DNA from: Phytoactinopolyspora halotolerans
GTDB lineage: Bacteria > Actinomycetota > Actinomycetes > Jiangellales > Jiangellaceae
NCBI RefSeq assembly: GCF_010550675.1
Contig: NZ_JAAGOA010000001.1
Location: forward strand, 1-64,000
Direction: 5' to 3'
Length of the DNA: 64,000 nucleotides
Part shown: positions 43,936 through 49,474 of the stretch, piece after piece
Position numbering within the stretch: the stretch's first letter is position 1
How the letters are laid out: each line of letters opens with the position of its first letter
Program-made: the position numbers and the translations under genes
The notes under the pieces: model-generated
The model's input: the letters and a program-made list of their open reading frames with translations, nothing else
What the model was told of the DNA's origin: nothing
Database searches by the model: none

Positions 43936-43986
43936 GGTTTCTTCGTGCCCCAACAGGCCTGCAGAGGTGGTACGGCACGAGAAACC
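43936..43986 (+). promoter_or_regulatory. Long hairpin in the cobD leader
   Basis: GGTTTCTTCGTGCC (43936-43949) pairs with GGCACGAGAAACC (43974-43986) through 13 base pairs with one bulged T, around a 24-base loop. It lies 55 bases before the cobD start. It lacks the B12 aptamer core, so it is either a regulatory leader hairpin or a terminator guarding cobD-cobQ. Otherwise 43823-44041 shows no gene. Confidence 0.5.
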
Positions 43987-44041
43987 CTGGTGGTGCGCTG
44001 GCGACGGCGACCCCCAACGGACCCGACCCGACAGGAGAACA

Positions 44042-45178
44042 GTGACCTGGGCGACGACGACCGGCCTGGCCGCCGGTGCGATCGCCGACGCGATCGTCGG
44101 AGACCCACGCCGCGGGCATCCCGTGGCCGGCTTCGGACACGTGGCCGACCGCCTTGAACGCCGCTGGTGGACGGACTCGAAGGTACGCGGCGCCCTCTAC
44201 ACGGGTGTCGCAGTCGGTGCGCCGGCGCTCGCGGCCGCACTCCTGGACCGGATGTGCGCCGGCGGCAGCCGCCGACCCGGCTCGGCTCCCGTGCGCCCAC
44301 TGATCCGAACGACGACGGTCGGCGCCGCCACCTGGGCAGTCCTCGGCGGCAAGAGCCTGACCCGGGAGGCCGCGCTCCTCGGCCGATCGCTCGACGACGG
44401 CGACATCGACGCTGCCCGACGCCGGCTGCCGCACCTGTGCGGACGTGACCCGGCGAGCCTCGACGCCGACGGGCTGGCCCGCGCCACGGTGGAATCCGTC
44501 GCCGAGAACACATCCGACGCCGTGGTCGCCCCGCTCGTGTGGGGTGCCGTCGGCGGACTCCCCGGCCTGGTCGCATACCGCGCGGTCAACACGCTGGACG
44601 CGATGGTCGGCCACAAGAGTGCACGTCATCGCAACTTCGGCTGGGCCTCGGCGCGGCTGGACGACGCCGCCAATCTCCTGCCCGCCCGCCTCTCCGGCCT
44701 GCTGACCGCCGCGTCGGCACCGCTCGTCGGCGGCCGTCCCGCCGATGCCCTGCGCGCGTGGCGCGACGACGCCCGTCGGCATCCGAGCCCGAATGCCGGC
44801 GTGGTGGAGGCGGCATTCGCCGGTGCGCTCGGCCGACGGCTCGGTGGACGGACGGTTTACCCGTACGGGGTCGACGAGCGGCCACTGCTCGGCTCCGGCC
44901 CTGAGACCACAGTGGAGGACATCCCACGAGCGGTGCGGCTCTCCCGCGCCGTGCAGGTCGGCACCCTGGCCACGGTCGTCGCGGCCAGGCTTGCGGTCGG
45001 CACGCTCGTTCGCCGTCGAGACCGGCTCGCGCATGGTGCGCTGAGTGACGCCACGATCCAGACAAAACGGACACGCCGACGAGCAACCACCGCACCATGG
45101 GCGAGCACTCAACACACCATGCCGCAGCTTCGCGGGAGGCGTCGGCAGGCAGCCATGAGGAACGGGAGGCGTCGATGA
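44042..45178 (+). CDS. cobD: Adenosylcobinamide-phosphate synthase (CobD/CbiB)
   Basis: A 378-residue membrane protein that attaches aminopropanol (phosphate) to adenosylcobyric acid. Family motifs are DAIVGDPRRGHPVAGFGHVA, DADGLARATVESVAENTSD, WGAVGGLPGLVAYRAVNTLD and FGWASARLDDAANLLPARL, then PYGVDERPLLGSG. The GTG at 44042 follows GGAG. The last about 45 residues are basic, Arg/Thr-rich and hydrophilic, longer than usual, and probably a late extension. Its stop overlaps the cobQ start (ATGA at 45175), so CobQ (making cobyric acid) and CobD (using it) are translationally coupled. Confidence 0.92.
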   Translation: MTWATTTGLAAGAIADAIVGDPRRGHPVAGFGHVADRLERRWWTDSKVRGALYTGVAVGAPALAAALLDRMCAGGSRRPGSAPVRPLIRTTTVGAATWAVLGGKSLTREAALLGRSLDDGDIDAARRRLPHLCGRDPASLDADGLARATVESVAENTSDAVVAPLVWGAVGGLPGLVAYRAVNTLDAMVGHKSARHRNFGWASARLDDAANLLPARLSGLLTAASAPLVGGRPADALRAWRDDARRHPSPNAGVVEAAFAGALGRRLGGRTVYPYGVDERPLLGSGPETTVEDIPRAVRLSRAVQVGTLATVVAARLAVGTLVRRRDRLAHGALSDATIQTKRTRRRATTAPWASTQHTMPQLRGRRRQAAMRNGRRR

Positions 45179-46797
45179 ACGCGCGCCGGGGTGGTCTGCT
45201 GGTGGCCGGGACCACGTCGGACGCCGGGAAGAGCCTGGTGACCGCAGGCATCTGCCGTTGGCTCGCCCGCCAAGGCGTGCGCGTGGCGCCCTACAAGGCG
45301 CAGAACATGTCGAACAACTCGATGGTGTGCCCGGACGGCTCGGAGATCGGCCGGGCGCAGTGGGTGCAGGCGATGGCGGCCGGAGTGGTGCCGGAGGCTG
45401 CGATGAACCCGGTGCTGCTCAAGCCGGGCAGCGACCGCACATCGCACATCGTGCTGCGCGGCCGGCCGTACGGGACGCTCCGTGCCGGCCAGTACGCGGG
45501 CGGCCGGCAGGTGCTCGCCGAGGCCGCGTTCGAGGCGCTGGCCGACCTGCGCAGCCGGTTCGACGCGGTCATCTGTGAGGGCGCGGGCAGCCCGGCGGAG
45601 ATCAACCTCCGCGCGGGCGACTACGTCAACATGGGCCTGGCCAGGCACGCGGACCTGCCCGTGGTGGTCGTCGCCGACGTCGACCGCGGCGGCTCGCTGG
45701 CCGCCATGTACGGCACGCTCGCACTGCTGGAGCCGGCGGACCAACGGCTTCTCGTCGGCTTCGTGGTCAACAAATTCCGCGGCGACGTCGACGTGCTCCG
45801 CCCCGGGCTGGACCGGATCGCGGAGCTGACCGGGCGTCCGGTGCTCGGCGTGCTGCCGTGGCTGGACGGGGTGTGGATCGACTCCGAGGACGCACTCGCC
45901 GTCGGCGGCTGGGCGGCCGGTGCCCACGGCGACGACCCGCAGTGTGCGGGTCACGGCGCACACCCCGCCGGACGCAACGGCTCGAGGCAGACCCTGTCCG
46001 TCGCCGTGGTGCGGTTTCCGCGAGTGTCCAACGCCACCGACGTCGACGCGCTGGCGTGCGAACCCGGCGTGACCGTGACGCTGACGGCCGATCCCGACGT
46101 CGTCGCCGCGGCCGACCTGGTGGTCCTTCCCGGAAGCCGCGCCACCGTGGCCGACCTGGACTGGATGCGACGACGCGGGCTGGACCATGCCGTCGCCGCA
46201 CGTGCGGACGGCGGACGCCCGGTTCTCGGCATCTGCGGCGGCTACCAGATGCTCGCCCAGCGCATCGTCGACCCCATCGAGTCGGGACAGACCGTGGATG
46301 GGCTCGGGCTACTCCCCACCGAGGTGACGTTCGGCGCCGCCAAGATGCTCGGCCGTCCGCTCGGGTCATGGCGCGGCCACGACGTGCACGCCTACGAGAT
46401 CCACCACGGCATCGCCACGCTCCACGACGACCCGGCGCGCATGACACGCGCCGACGCTGATGGCCTCCGTCCACGTGTGGGCGGGAGCGCACACTCCACC
46501 GGATCCTATGAGGAGTTCCTCGACGGCTTCCGGGCCGGCAGTGTGTGGGGAACCACCTGGCACGGTGCGTTCGAGAACGACGGGTTCCGCCGTGCCTGGC
46601 TGACCGAGGTCGCCGAAACGATCGGTCACGGCTGGCGGCCGTCGGCGGCGGCACCCGGATTCGCCGCCCAGCGCGAGCTGATGCTGGACCACCTCGCCGA
46701 CGCCGTCGCGCAGCACCTGGACACGGCCGCCCTGCTCACGCTCATCGAGAGCGGTGTTCCCGACGGCCTTCCGCTCGTCAGGCCCTCCACCGGCTGA
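45175..46797 (+). CDS. cobQ: Adenosylcobyric acid synthase (glutamine-hydrolysing)
   Basis: A 540-residue ATP- and glutamine-dependent amidase that amidates positions b, d, e and g of adenosylcobyrinic acid diamide. The N-terminal dethiobiotin-synthetase-like ATPase shows LLVAGTTSDAGKSLVTAG and APYKAQNMSNNSMV. The C-terminal GATase domain has nucleophile Cys354 in GICGGYQML and catalytic His410 in YEIHHG. Length and motif order are normal for CobQ/CbiP. GGGAGGC precedes ATG 45175. The gap 46798-46938 contains only a start-less remnant frame. Confidence 0.95.
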   Translation: MNARRGGLLVAGTTSDAGKSLVTAGICRWLARQGVRVAPYKAQNMSNNSMVCPDGSEIGRAQWVQAMAAGVVPEAAMNPVLLKPGSDRTSHIVLRGRPYGTLRAGQYAGGRQVLAEAAFEALADLRSRFDAVICEGAGSPAEINLRAGDYVNMGLARHADLPVVVVADVDRGGSLAAMYGTLALLEPADQRLLVGFVVNKFRGDVDVLRPGLDRIAELTGRPVLGVLPWLDGVWIDSEDALAVGGWAAGAHGDDPQCAGHGAHPAGRNGSRQTLSVAVVRFPRVSNATDVDALACEPGVTVTLTADPDVVAAADLVVLPGSRATVADLDWMRRRGLDHAVAARADGGRPVLGICGGYQMLAQRIVDPIESGQTVDGLGLLPTEVTFGAAKMLGRPLGSWRGHDVHAYEIHHGIATLHDDPARMTRADADGLRPRVGGSAHSTGSYEEFLDGFRAGSVWGTTWHGAFENDGFRRAWLTEVAETIGHGWRPSAAAPGFAAQRELMLDHLADAVAQHLDTAALLTLIESGVPDGLPLVRPSTG

Positions 46798-46938: not shown

Positions 46939-48165
46939 TCAGCCGGAGAACCCGAGGTCGCGTGAGCGCTCGCGGCTGACCCGGCTGAGCTCGCCCAGCA
47001 GCACCCCGATATCCACATTGTTGCGTCGCCGCCCATCGCGTAGCCGCAACGCCACCTGGCCGGCGTCGACCTCGCGATCACCCACCACCGCGACGTACGG
47101 CACCCGCCGCTCATGTGCCCGCCGGATCCGCTGCGCAACGGTGGCCTCGGCGCCGACGACGTCAGCCCGCAGCCCCGCCGCCACCGCGTCGTCGTAGATC
47201 TTCCCCGCGACGGCCGCATGCGCCTCTCCGACCGGAAGAATCGCCAGCTGCACCGGCGCCAGCCAGACCGGGAACGCCCCGTCGTACAGCTCGATCAGGT
47301 GCGCGACCAGCCGCTCCATCGCCGACATGACCCCACGATGGATCATCACCGGCTGTCGGCTGCTTCCGTCGGCGGCCACATAGCGTAGATCGAATCGCTC
47401 AGGTTGGTTGAAGTCGAGCTGGACGGTCGACAGCGACTCCTCCCGCCCAGCCGAGTCCCTTACCTCGATGTCGATCTTCGGCCCGTAGAAGGCGGCCTCA
47501 CCCGGGGCTTCGACGTACTCGGCGCCGACGGCCGCCAGCGCGTCCCGCAGCATCTCCTCGCAGCGCTCCCACAGCGCCGCGTCTCCCAGATACTTCCCTG
47601 CCTCGCCGCGGCGCGACAGCCGCAGGTAGGCGACCTCGATGCCGAGCACGTCGTAGACGTGACGGATCTGGCGCAGCGCCGACTCGACTTCGTCGGCGAT
47701 CTGCTCCGGCGCGCAGAAGACGTGGGTGTCGTCCAGGTTGATCTGACGTACCCGGGACAGCCCGCCCAATACCCCGGACAGCTCGCTGCGGAACATCGGG
47801 GCAAGCTCGGACAGGCGTACCGGCAGGTCTCGGTAGCTGCGCTGCTGCGACGCGTAGACCAGGGCATGGTGCGGGCAGTTGGCCGGCCGCAGGACGAATT
47901 CCTCACCGCCGACGCGCATCGGCGGGAACATGTCGTCGGCGAACTTGCCCCAGTGGCCGGAGCGCTCGAACAGCGCACGTTTGGCCAGCACCGGGGTGTA
48001 GACGTGCTGGCTACCGGCACGGGCCGCCTGCTCGGCGGCGAACCTCTCCAGCTCCGCACGGATGACGGCGCCGTCCGGCAGCCACAGTGGCAACCCTGAA
48101 CCGACATCGGGGTGGGTGGCGAACAGGTCAAGCGAGCGGCCCAGCTCGCGGTGGTCGATCGACAT
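46939..48165 (-). CDS. thrS: Minimal threonyl-tRNA synthetase lacking TGS and editing domains
   Basis: A 408-residue class II synthetase that charges tRNA-Thr. Only the catalytic and anticodon-binding domains are present; housekeeping ThrRS is about 640-680 residues because of N-terminal TGS and editing domains. The active-site metal ligands are intact: Cys97 (ANCPHH), His148 (DDTHVFC) and His in VMIHRG near 274. Motif 2 is MFRSELSGVLGGLSRVR, and the anticodon domain begins near VWLAPVQLAILPVG. The absence of editing predicts reliance on another enzyme to clear Ser-tRNA-Thr. It is probably a second copy, used under Thr stress or as a resistant isoform. The start codon follows a sequestered ribosome site (GGAG at 48178-48175). 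Confidence 0.92.
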   Translation of the reverse strand: MSIDHRELGRSLDLFATHPDVGSGLPLWLPDGAVIRAELERFAAEQAARAGSQHVYTPVLAKRALFERSGHWGKFADDMFPPMRVGGEEFVLRPANCPHHALVYASQQRSYRDLPVRLSELAPMFRSELSGVLGGLSRVRQINLDDTHVFCAPEQIADEVESALRQIRHVYDVLGIEVAYLRLSRRGEAGKYLGDAALWERCEEMLRDALAAVGAEYVEAPGEAAFYGPKIDIEVRDSAGREESLSTVQLDFNQPERFDLRYVAADGSSRQPVMIHRGVMSAMERLVAHLIELYDGAFPVWLAPVQLAILPVGEAHAAVAGKIYDDAVAAGLRADVVGAEATVAQRIRRAHERRVPYVAVVGDREVDAGQVALRLRDGRRRNNVDIGVLLGELSRVSRERSRDLGFSG

Positions 48166-48171
48166 GATGGT

Positions 48172-48196
48172 GGGCTCCTTCGCAGGTATGGAGCCC
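48172..48196 (-). promoter_or_regulatory. Ribosome-site-sequestering hairpin of thrS
   Basis: On the reverse strand GGGCTCC (48196-48190) pairs perfectly with GGAGCCC (48178-48172) across an 11-base loop. GGAG in the second arm is the only Shine-Dalgarno for thrS, nine bases before its ATG. Folding would therefore block translation. There is no U-run, so this is not a terminator. Confidence 0.7.
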
Positions 48197-48205
48197 GAAG
48201 ACCAG

Positions 48206-48263
48206 ACCCACGACGGCCCGCCTCAACGGAACCTCGGGACCTCTGGCCCCTGGGCTCGTGGGT
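48206..48263 (-). promoter_or_regulatory. Competing pairing segments of the thrS leader
   Basis: ACCCACGAGCCC (48263-48252) can pair by its first 8 bases with TCGTGGGT (48213-48206), or by GAGCCC with GGGCTC (48196-48191), the strand that otherwise covers the ribosome site. This gives mutually exclusive folds of the type used in attenuators. The assignment is from sequence complementarity only. Confidence 0.55.
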
Positions 48264-48273
48264 GAGAGAAACG

Positions 48274-48342
48274 TCAGGTCACACCGCAGCCACGCCGGGT
48301 CAGAGTGCCCGGCGTCGTCGTCAGATGCTGGTGGTGTGCCAT
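48274..48342 (-). CDS. Threonine-rich leader peptide (22 aa) upstream of thrS
   Basis: The frame ATG...TGA encodes MAHHQHLTTTPGTLTRRGCG followed by VT. Six of 22 residues are Thr, including three consecutive ACG codons. The ACG run enters a perfect 8-bp hairpin inside the leader (ACGCCGGG at 48315-48308 with CCCGGCGT at 48299-48292). A Thr-codon run in a short frame before a threonyl-tRNA synthetase is the signature of ribosome-mediated attenuation: scarce Thr-tRNA would stall the ribosome and change the downstream fold. The ribosome site of the leader itself is weak (GTGGGC), with an alternative GTG two codons upstream. Confidence 0.65.
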   Translation of the reverse strand: MAHHQHLTTTPGTLTRRGCGVT

Positions 48343-48514
48343 GCCCACGACGGTACCCCGGGCCTGGCCCCCGACGCACCTGGTTTACGTGGCTGTCGGC
48401 ATGCTCCGCGTCTTCCGACCCATGACGCATGTCACGGTGCACTCCTGAAGGACCCACGCGATCCGGTGACGTGGTCAACGGTCGAACGCTGGGTCGCCGG
48501 GCGATCGTGGACGT

Positions 48515-49474
48515 ATGACAGAGACCATCATCGACGTCGACGGGTTGCGTCGGCGCTACGGCGGCACCGACGACGGTTTCGAGGCGGTGCGCGGCGTGTC
48601 CTTCACGGTTCACAAGGGCGAGCTGTTCGCACTTCTCGGCACCAACGGGGCCGGCAAGACCTCCACGCTCGAAATGATCGAAGGGCTCGCTCCTGCAGGT
48701 GCGGGCTCGGTGGCCGTGCTCGGCAGGGACCCGTACATCGACCGGGCCGACGTCCGTCCGCGGATCGGGATCATGCTGCAGGAGGGCGGTTTCCCCTCCG
48801 ACCTGACCGTGGCGGAGATGGCCATGATGTGGGCCGGGATGATGGCCGACCACCGCCCGATCTCCGAGGCGCTGGAGGTGGTAGACCTCGGCTCCCGCAC
48901 GGACGTGAAGATCCGTGCCCTCTCCGGAGGCGAACGACGACGCCTGGACCTGGCGTTGGCCCTGATGGGACGCCCGGACGTGCTCTTCCTCGACGAGCCG
49001 ACCACGGGGCTCGATCCGCAGAGCCGGCGGGCCGCCTGGGAGCTCATCCGCGGCCTGCTCGACGACGGCACCACCATCGTGCTGACCACGCACTATCTGG
49101 AGGAGGCCGAGGAACTGGCCGACCGGATCGCCATCATGGACGCGGGCCGGATCGTCACGAGCGGCACCGCCGCCGAGATCGCGGCCGCCCACCCGGCGCG
49201 GATCTCGTTCGAGCTCGACGACGCCCTGCTCCGTGCGGACGACGGCGCCGTCTCCCCGCGCGTGCAGTTGCCGCCGCTGAACGCCCAGTTCCACACCACC
49301 GGCCGGCGCGTCACCGTGCACACGGACGAGGTCCAGCAGACCTTGACCGACCTGCTCGGCTGGGCCAACGAGCGCGGCATCGCACTCACCGGTCTGAACG
49401 TCCGATCCGGATCCCTGGAGCAGGCCTTTCTCGCCGTGGCATCCGGCGAGCACCGCGAGGAGATCACCGCATGA
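48515..49474 (+). CDS. ABC transporter ATP-binding protein (ABC-2 exporter type)
   Basis: A 319-residue ATPase. Walker A is LGTNGAGKTSTLEM, the Q-loop is GIMLQEGGFPSDL, the signature is LSGGERRRLDLAL, Walker B is VLFLDEPTTGLDP, and the switch His is in LTTHYLEEAEEL. A C-terminal extension of about 90 residues is typical of DrrA/CcmA-like exporter subunits. ATG 48515 is the start. It overlaps the permease gene (ATGA), and a histidine kinase and response regulator follow, suggesting an exporter for a drug or envelope-active compound under two-component control. Confidence 0.93.
   Translation: MTETIIDVDGLRRRYGGTDDGFEAVRGVSFTVHKGELFALLGTNGAGKTSTLEMIEGLAPAGAGSVAVLGRDPYIDRADVRPRIGIMLQEGGFPSDLTVAEMAMMWAGMMADHRPISEALEVVDLGSRTDVKIRALSGGERRRLDLALALMGRPDVLFLDEPTTGLDPQSRRAAWELIRGLLDDGTTIVLTTHYLEEAEELADRIAIMDAGRIVTSGTAAEIAAAHPARISFELDDALLRADDGAVSPRVQLPPLNAQFHTTGRRVTVHTDEVQQTLTDLLGWANERGIALTGLNVRSGSLEQAFLAVASGEHREEITA

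Follow-up and report, generated by a model that had tools for sequence, protein, structure and literature searches.

The gene considered here, a short threonyl-tRNA synthetase gene (thrS), lies on the reverse strand of a contig of Phytoactinopolyspora halotolerans, within the 64,000-nucleotide stretch of DNA that was analysed as a whole and is called the window throughout. The gene is preceded by a predicted threonine-rich reading frame and by a series of segments with the potential to pair in alternative ways. The features, with helices and segments as predicted, are:

46939-48165, reverse strand: short thrS, 408 amino acids, catalytic core and anticodon-binding domain; 5 Thr and zero ACG codons
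48172-48178, reverse strand: segment 6, GGAGCCC, which holds the thrS Shine-Dalgarno (SD) sequence
48190-48196, reverse strand: segment 5, GGGCTCC, pairing with segment 3 (GAGCCC; GGGCTC at 48191-48196) or with SD segment 6
48206-48219, reverse strand: segment 4, GGGCCGTCGTGGGT, forming the 3:4 hairpin; then CTGGTCTT, with no three-T run
48252-48263, reverse strand: segment 3, ACCCACGAGCCC, a possible partner of segments 2, 4 and 5
48274-48342, reverse strand: predicted leader frame, MAHHQHLTTTPGTLTRRGCGVT to its stop codon; six Thr codons, T-T(-T)-P kept in 92 of 92 loci
48280-48285, reverse strand: 3' arm of helix P0, GGTGTG, at the frame end
48290-48294, reverse strand: CGTGG, alternative partner of CCACG in segment 3
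48292-48299, reverse strand: 3' arm of helix P1, CCCGGCGT, in an 8-bp hairpin with ACGCCGGG
48308-48315, reverse strand: segment 1, the 5' arm of P1, ACGCCGGG, overlapping the third Thr codon; P1 has 6-9 bp across leaders
48313-48321, reverse strand: regulatory codons ACG ACG ACG, the Thr run of the leader frame
48333-48338, reverse strand: 5' arm of helix P0, CACACC, at the frame start
48350-48355, reverse strand: predicted -10 box TACCGT, 7 nt before the leader ATG, from which a leaderless transcript is expected

The 408-residue threonyl-tRNA synthetase (ThrRS) matches a class II core and an anticodon-binding domain in Pfam, and nothing else. Its match to the NCBIfam thrS profile begins at profile position 172, and the enzyme is therefore taken to be without the N-terminal TGS and editing domains. 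A full-length thrS is found on another contig of the same genome, with 41% identity across the core. A short copy and a full-length match occur together in 14 of the 22 genomes of the window's order: the window's own genome, one of the four other genomes of its genus and 12 of the sister genus. The short gene is accessory, being present in two of the five genomes of the window's genus. Relatives carrying it include Nakamurella, Rhodococcus, Saccharopolyspora, Promicromonospora and Kribbella among the best 80 of 333 relatives; these 80, together with a sample of 393 genomes of the class, supplied the 94 short-thrS loci compared here. All 94 short enzymes keep the three zinc ligands, R363, Y462, G463, Q484 and H309 (E. 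coli numbering, placed by motif). One short thrS match (G162:C6:397975-399168) contains a single in-frame TGA. In the window, cobalamin genes (cbiB/cobD and cobQ; 43967-46797, forward strand) head toward the 3' end of the short thrS, and a divergent ABC transporter ATP-binding gene (48515-49474, forward strand), DrrA-like by NCBIfam at a score below the cut-off, starts 160 bases from the leader -10 box.

A preliminary description of this locus had placed a Thr-rich frame with the run ACG ACG ACG on the reverse strand ahead of thrS. That frame stands, at 48342-48274, with 108 nt between its stop codon and the thrS ATG, and the comparison with relatives that was proposed at the time bears it out. 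An initial scan found a TTP frame upstream in 90 of the 94 short-thrS loci and TTTP in 87, and Markov-shuffled upstream regions gave TTP in 82 and TTTP in 6 of 1880. With wider flanks, the Thr frame is present in all 92 judgeable short-thrS loci, as TTTP in 89 and as TTP only in three, two of the 94 (L147 and L155, at contig ends) being left out. The frames span 15-25 codons and end 65-108 nt before thrS (median 89; n=90, as L012 and L035 are left out of tests that require the thrS start). Proline invariably follows the Thr run, encoded by CCG in 92 of 92, and the residue after it is mostly Asp, Glu or Gly.

In 92 of 92 leaders, a TAnnnT box precedes the chosen start by 6-10 nt, a count biased upward because the start was chosen partly by that box; the background is 56 of 4600 random 20-nt windows. 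The transcripts of short-thrS leaders are thus expected to be leaderless, starting at or next to the leader ATG. A transcription start downstream of 48342, named beforehand as an outcome that would speak against the leader, is not indicated, as the predicted -10 box lies directly upstream of that position. Comparative sequence analysis confirms that the leader unit before short thrS is real and widely conserved.

Alternative helices and folding of the leader

The 8-bp hairpin that the ACG run had been said to enter is found as drawn (48308-48315 with 48292-48299). In the family, this helix P1 reads CGCCGG...CCGGCG, lies inside the frame and begins in the last Thr codon. The end of the leader frame constitutes segment 2, which can pair with segment 3 at the site that segment 5 would also occupy. 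The two exclusive pairings earlier ascribed to 48252-48263 likewise hold, with segment 4 or with segment 5 as the partner. The SD hairpin is GGGCTCC:GGAGCCC in the window (leader L001) and TGGGCTCC:GGAGCCCA in its sister, L084.

Covariation was evaluated by permutation, each 5' segment being scored with its own 3' partner and with partners from other leaders, both for all leaders (92; 90 with segment 5) and for 40 representatives (38 with segment 5). The own-pair mean is reached in 0 of 2000 permutations by each of P0, 2:3, 3:4, 3:5 and 5:6, and by this measure the stems co-vary between species, which the preliminary description had proposed as a check. The 13-14 T-rich representatives alone give 13/2000 for 2:3, 1/2000 for 3:5 and 24/2000 for 5:6, the 25-26 other representatives give 2/2000 for 5:6, and under earlier segment limits 5:6 gave 15/2000 in 35 representatives. 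P1 showed no signal in that earlier run (1907/2000 permutations at or above its own value in all leaders, 204/2000 in representatives), and its covariation is uninformative because its sequence is almost invariant. Seven decoy pairings yield nothing comparable, the highest being A:R4 in the full set (z 2.0, 41/2000) and UP:R5 in a subset (z 2.0, 52/2000), and a helix between segment 2 and the linker has z -0.2 in all leaders and 0.8 in representatives.

A further alignment, A2, comprises 40 leaders hand-picked, for sufficient likeness in alignment, from the 66 with fewer than four T in eight, plus L116, whose row is gaps nearly throughout. On A2, 96.4% of 3:5 cells are paired, with 15 double-change cells, and the paired cells, the double-change cells and the covariation score are each matched in 0 of 500 shuffles; the number of pairs with double changes (67/500) and the number of pair types (354/500) do not exceed the shuffles. 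The SD hairpin as drawn (5:6) has 85.8% of its A2 cells paired, with covariation not above shuffles (178/500). On this comparative evidence, the mutually exclusive helices 1:2, 2:3 and 3:4 are present in the family.

Across 92 leaders, nascent RNA ending in segment 3 was folded with a ribosome placed on Thr codon 2, which leaves 2:3 with a mean of 8.5 pairs; placing it at the stop codon lowers the mean to 0.3, and leaving it out altogether gives 0.7. At least four pairs of 2:3 are reached in 86 of the 92 leaders on Thr codon 2. Controls with segment 2 shuffled still reach a mean of 6.2 pairs, and 353 of 460 have at least four. Much of this folding is therefore attributable to GC content, and covariation is the better evidence for 2:3. 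At equilibrium, 3:4 wins in most whole leaders and ribosome states, and is higher at the stop than on Thr codon 1 in just 13 of 92. Exposure of the SD at equilibrium is flat between states, being higher on Thr codon 1 in 9 of 90 leaders and at the stop in 10 of 90. Subjected to the same kind of folding, the E. coli thr leader (NC_000913) keeps its terminator in every state; because this leader shows no switch either, equilibrium folding is weak evidence in either direction. A 3:4 helix that persists at equilibrium is as expected if the choice is made during transcription.

For the window, the modelled probability of 3:4 in RNA that stops shortly after segment 4 is 0.39 without a ribosome, 0.00-0.03 on the Thr codons and 0.07 at the stop. 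In the full leader it reaches 0.40 with the ribosome at the stop and is never dominant. These modelled values shift weakly in the expected direction. The 3:5 pairing that would free the SD attains at most 0.04 at equilibrium. In the full leader of sister L084, the ribosome state makes no difference to 5:6 (1.0), and 3:4 never drops below 0.83; a shorter RNA gives 3:4 at 0.24 on Thr codon 2 or at 0.49-0.64 across the three Thr codons, according to where the RNA is made to end.

The sequence behind the hairpins bears on the mode of output. Behind the frame, the relatives have a strong 3:4 hairpin. After the best simple hairpin, 26 of 92 leaders have at least four T among the eight bases that follow; after segment 4 the figure is 27 of 92, with a run of three T in 10 of 92 and a run of four in 2 of 92. 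As runs of three T are this few, transcription termination in relatives is suggested, not more. The tail of the window's segment 4 has four T in eight and no run of three, which falls short of a terminator T-tract. This is what would be seen if the attenuator of the window were purely translational, its leader ribosome controlling only the SD hairpin 5:6 and no termination taking place, a reading we consider possible and hold tentatively. It would fit the presence of the SD hairpin in both the window and L084, and the drop of 5:6 in the window to 0.42 on Thr codon 1. However, 5:6 stays at 0.99 on Thr codons 2 and 3 (0.84 at the stop) and does not move at all in L084; SD exposure in the family is flat between states, and T-rich tails are present in some relatives, as counted above. 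The earlier proposal that the final hairpin hides the SD fares accordingly: the hairpin is present, but folding gave no clear release of the SD.

Spread of the leader family

A covariance model, R1, was built from 70 of the 92 leaders (alignment A1), the window's not among them; having only 8 pairs, it relies mostly on sequence. R1 detects the window's leader in the window's genome at E 5e-6, and the window leader and sister L084 score just 38-39 bits with the family model. Over the sample of 393 genomes of the class, R1 gives 58 matches of at least 60 bits, of which 56 lie in genomes known for short thrS, many being leaders on which R1 was trained. One match (G105) precedes a short thrS missed by the protein search, and another (G236; L191, G236:C18:1-600) is a complete leader at a contig end, the sequence after it not being thrS-like.

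Two weaker matches (G242 and G376) precede full-length thrS genes, and in the family of these two genomes, of which 200 genomes were sampled, 117 genomes have a match at E 1e-5. That search yielded 36 matches scoring under 60 bits; 22 of them were inspected and 19 precede a full-length thrS, a class assigned by N-terminal sequence, as most loci stop before the gene end; the 19 include L249, a partial leader match whose frame was not recovered. An example of these leaders is MPHVIETTTPGHSRRARGMS. Because 19 matches precede full-length thrS, the leader element serves two kinds of thrS. The three other inspected loci (L232, L233 and L236) are not full-length thrS. In L236 (G487), the Thr run now reads T-T-M-P, an early break interrupts the thrS-like sequence that follows, and leader and gene seem to decay together. 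Among sampled full-length thrS with enough flank (63 of 64, with approximate starts and many from other phyla), a TTP frame beside a -10 box occurs in 0 of 63 and a TTP frame without the box in 6 of 63.

Below 33 bits R1 has 17 matches, of which 11 were inspected (L195-L205). In eight of these, the script found no short TT-containing frame. The other three (L199, L200 and L201) are leaders rich in aromatic codons, starting MQRNFWRFYGYRP or similar and followed by a strong hairpin; the gene after L200 and L201 is presumably a DAHP synthase, as it reads. These aromatic leaders resemble attenuators described for Corynebacterium aromatic genes. Rfam, T-box included, gives no match in the window at the gathering score, nor in 7 loci up to E 0.5.

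The accessory distribution of short thrS, in two of five genomes of the genus, also invites the reading that the auxiliary ThrRS is an inducible resistance copy: borrelidin or obafluorin would empty tRNA-Thr, the leader would open and a resistant enzyme would take over. The same logic is described, in the accessible text, for TrpRS1, the indolmycin-resistant auxiliary TrpRS of Streptomyces coelicolor (PMC9437257). Nevertheless, the residues that could mark resistance fail to separate the two copies. At the marker site G463, Gly is present in 94 of 94 short and 64 of 64 full-length enzymes, and the L489 position is Gln in 92 of 94 short and 59 of 64 full-length enzymes (the roles of these resistance sites in E. 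coli ThrRS are treated in the available portions of PMC11252418 and PMC4389257). A drug response is unreadable from L489, as both copies differ from E. coli there. By this analogy and these residues, a resistance copy would be an unlikely explanation of the pair.

Codon use in the leader and in the controlled gene

The Thr codons of the leader are nearly all ACG (codon 1 in 78 of the 89 leaders that bear Thr there, codon 2 in 89 of 92 and codon 3 in 92 of 92). The third of them is bound in P1, and the first is unpaired in the single structure inspected by eye, that of L021. The genes behind the leaders use ACG very differently: among Thr codons, it accounts for 2 of 476 in 60 short thrS, 15 of 278 in a further 34 and 9 of 342 in the 19 leader-bearing full-length thrS, against 1208 of 3361 (36%) in background genes from 20 regions, all counts from related and therefore non-independent genes. 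In all 14 paired genomes, the short thrS has fewer Thr and fewer ACG codons than the full-length core. Threonine makes up 2.1% of short ThrRS versus 3.6-4.4% of full-length cores and 6.5% in 124 neighbouring ORFs, and because the enzyme is poor in Thr, it could be built while threonyl-tRNA is scarce. Leader-bearing full-length thrS are not Thr-poor (4.2% vs 4.0%).

Two broader causes of the purge were considered and rejected. High expression does not account for it, as EF-Tu in 14 leader-bearing genomes retains ACG in 132 of 467 Thr codons (28%); nor are all Thr-related genes purged, since in the same genomes ACG makes up 103 of 235 Thr codons in thrC and 99 of 222 in thrB. Among background genes, 1 of 131 has ACG at 3% or below. 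The absence of a purge in thrB and thrC suggests, by inference, that the switch matters most when tRNA-Thr charging fails, not Thr synthesis.

Ordinary codon bias of well-expressed genes, with no bearing on sensing, is a rival account of this pattern. The leader-less full-length cores stand at 25% ACG (63 of 254) vs the 36% background, and TCG is also lower in leader-bearing full-length thrS (0.31 vs 0.465 of TCN codons). However, EF-Tu holds its 28% ACG, the seven other fourfold boxes in the 60 short thrS lie within 0.07 of background, and in a separate comparison full-length thrS are purged only when they carry the leader (ACG in 9 of 314 Thr codons with it vs 114 of 286 without). We regard codon bias as a very improbable account of the purge. 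That the leader is instead a drug-sensing arrest peptide, whose nascent chain stalls the ribosome and which is no Thr-tRNA sensor, is scarcely credible: the invariant Pro and the Asp, Glu or Gly that mostly follows would suit it, but RNA pairing (CGCCGG, CAGCGCG/CGCGCTG) accounts for much of what is conserved outside the Thr codons, this conservation varies from group to group, and the purge of ACG in the gene would be left unexplained.

A scan of 30 of the 46 tRNA loci shows separate UGU, CGU and GGU tRNA-Thr genes in the host, which allows ACG and ACC to be read by different tRNAs. We think it fairly probable that the leader senses one isoacceptor, tRNA-Thr(CGU), and that selection has rewritten the controlled gene to do without it. 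With similar, moderate confidence, ACG may be viewed as an alarm codon barred from the emergency gene, with the same partition imposed on short and full-length thrS. The frame, the helices and the codon partition are established by comparison among relatives.

The proposed switch and related systems

A ribosome-mediated threonine attenuator very probably controls the auxiliary thrS, with sensing specific to ACG and a target that avoids it. In the proposed mechanism, transcription would start at or beside the leader ATG. When Thr-tRNA is plentiful, the ribosome would reach the leader stop and cover segment 2; the long 3:4 hairpin would then form, segment 5 would hold the SD and thrS would be off. 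When ACG is unreadable, the ribosome would stall on the ACG codons and block P0 and P1, and segment 2 would capture segment 3 before segment 4 is made, allowing thrS expression. Release of the SD may be assisted by segment 5, for which covariation with segment 3 is seen in the family. The signal sensed would be the ACG codon specifically (tRNA-Thr CGU), and as the controlled gene avoids ACG, it could be made in the ACG-starved state. The order of folding, the response to Thr-tRNA and the output mode (transcriptional, translational or both) we infer. The preliminary description had proposed ribosome-mediated translational attenuation by Thr-tRNA; conservation, covariation and codon use support the attenuation, but the word 'translational' is unproved.

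The E. coli thr operon is controlled by ribosome-mediated attenuation. Its leader, thrL (NC_000913), resembles the present one in its Thr codons and strong 3:4 hairpin, but controls Thr biosynthesis and has a long T-tract. The accessible text of PMC1183508 gives eight ACC codons for E. coli thrL and sets out the theory of selective charging, by which a leader should carry the codon whose translation starvation reduces most. The ACG leaders described here agree with this theory, worked out there for E. coli leaders; a target synthetase gene purged of the leader codon does not figure in the available part of that account.

Contrary to the earlier statement that no Thr leader for thrS had been described, one is published: the reannotation of Streptomyces lividans TK24 lists, in its accessible text, a leaderless thrL, MKRVRPFLETTPGFVPAR, before thrS, with one hairpin, no U-rich run and termination called unclear (PMC8079986). 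Its leaderless layout and TTP...VPAR ending are common to many of the relatives examined here; the window's frame has TTTP and differs in its ending (GCGVT). The comparison is with the published description only, in which thrL stands before SLIV_19410, a thrS that may be of the short or the full-length kind. The leader is one item of a reannotation table, and the text available around it says nothing of alternative helices, of a family, of an auxiliary-enzyme context or of a codon partition. As listed there, the metL leader of S. lividans, before metNIQ, has ATTTPGA ahead of Met/Cys codons (PMC8079986). That leader may be related to the Thr-leader family.

Auxiliary synthetases under special control are known elsewhere. 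Vecchione and Sello reportedly described an attenuator of the auxiliary tryptophanyl-tRNA synthetase of Streptomyces coelicolor, in which, as here, a leader frame controls a spare synthetase gene; a choice among isoacceptors is impossible there because Trp has one codon. Anabaena likewise has a second ThrRS (thrS1/thrS2), with weak editing and induced by stress, but controlled in the available account by the zinc repressor Zur, with no leader frame (PMC4787780). In the portions available, work on ethanol-stressed S. coelicolor lists a sigma-E site for SCO3778, named there as a threonyl-tRNA synthetase (PMC10771440), and WblC/WhiB7 activates several spare synthetase genes (PMC7157823); SCO3778 was not found in the main text of the latter. 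A 2005 survey of actinobacterial RNA elements reports, in its accessible part, no conserved structures for threonine operons (PMC1262725). No account of the leader family, its helices or the ACG purge was found in the open-licence literature, a weak absence, as subscription journals lie mostly outside that scope. By comparison of these sequences, what is new here is the pairing of leader Thr codons that are nearly all ACG with a controlled gene purged of ACG.

If the attenuator works as proposed, it would provide a natural test of selective tRNA charging in many actinomycetes, in which one switch places opposite synonymous codons in leader and target, and does so for the sensed amino acid only. 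An editing-less ThrRS would be made only when the accurate enzyme cannot keep up. The codon signature itself, enriched in the leader and purged from the target, would be searchable in other attenuators.
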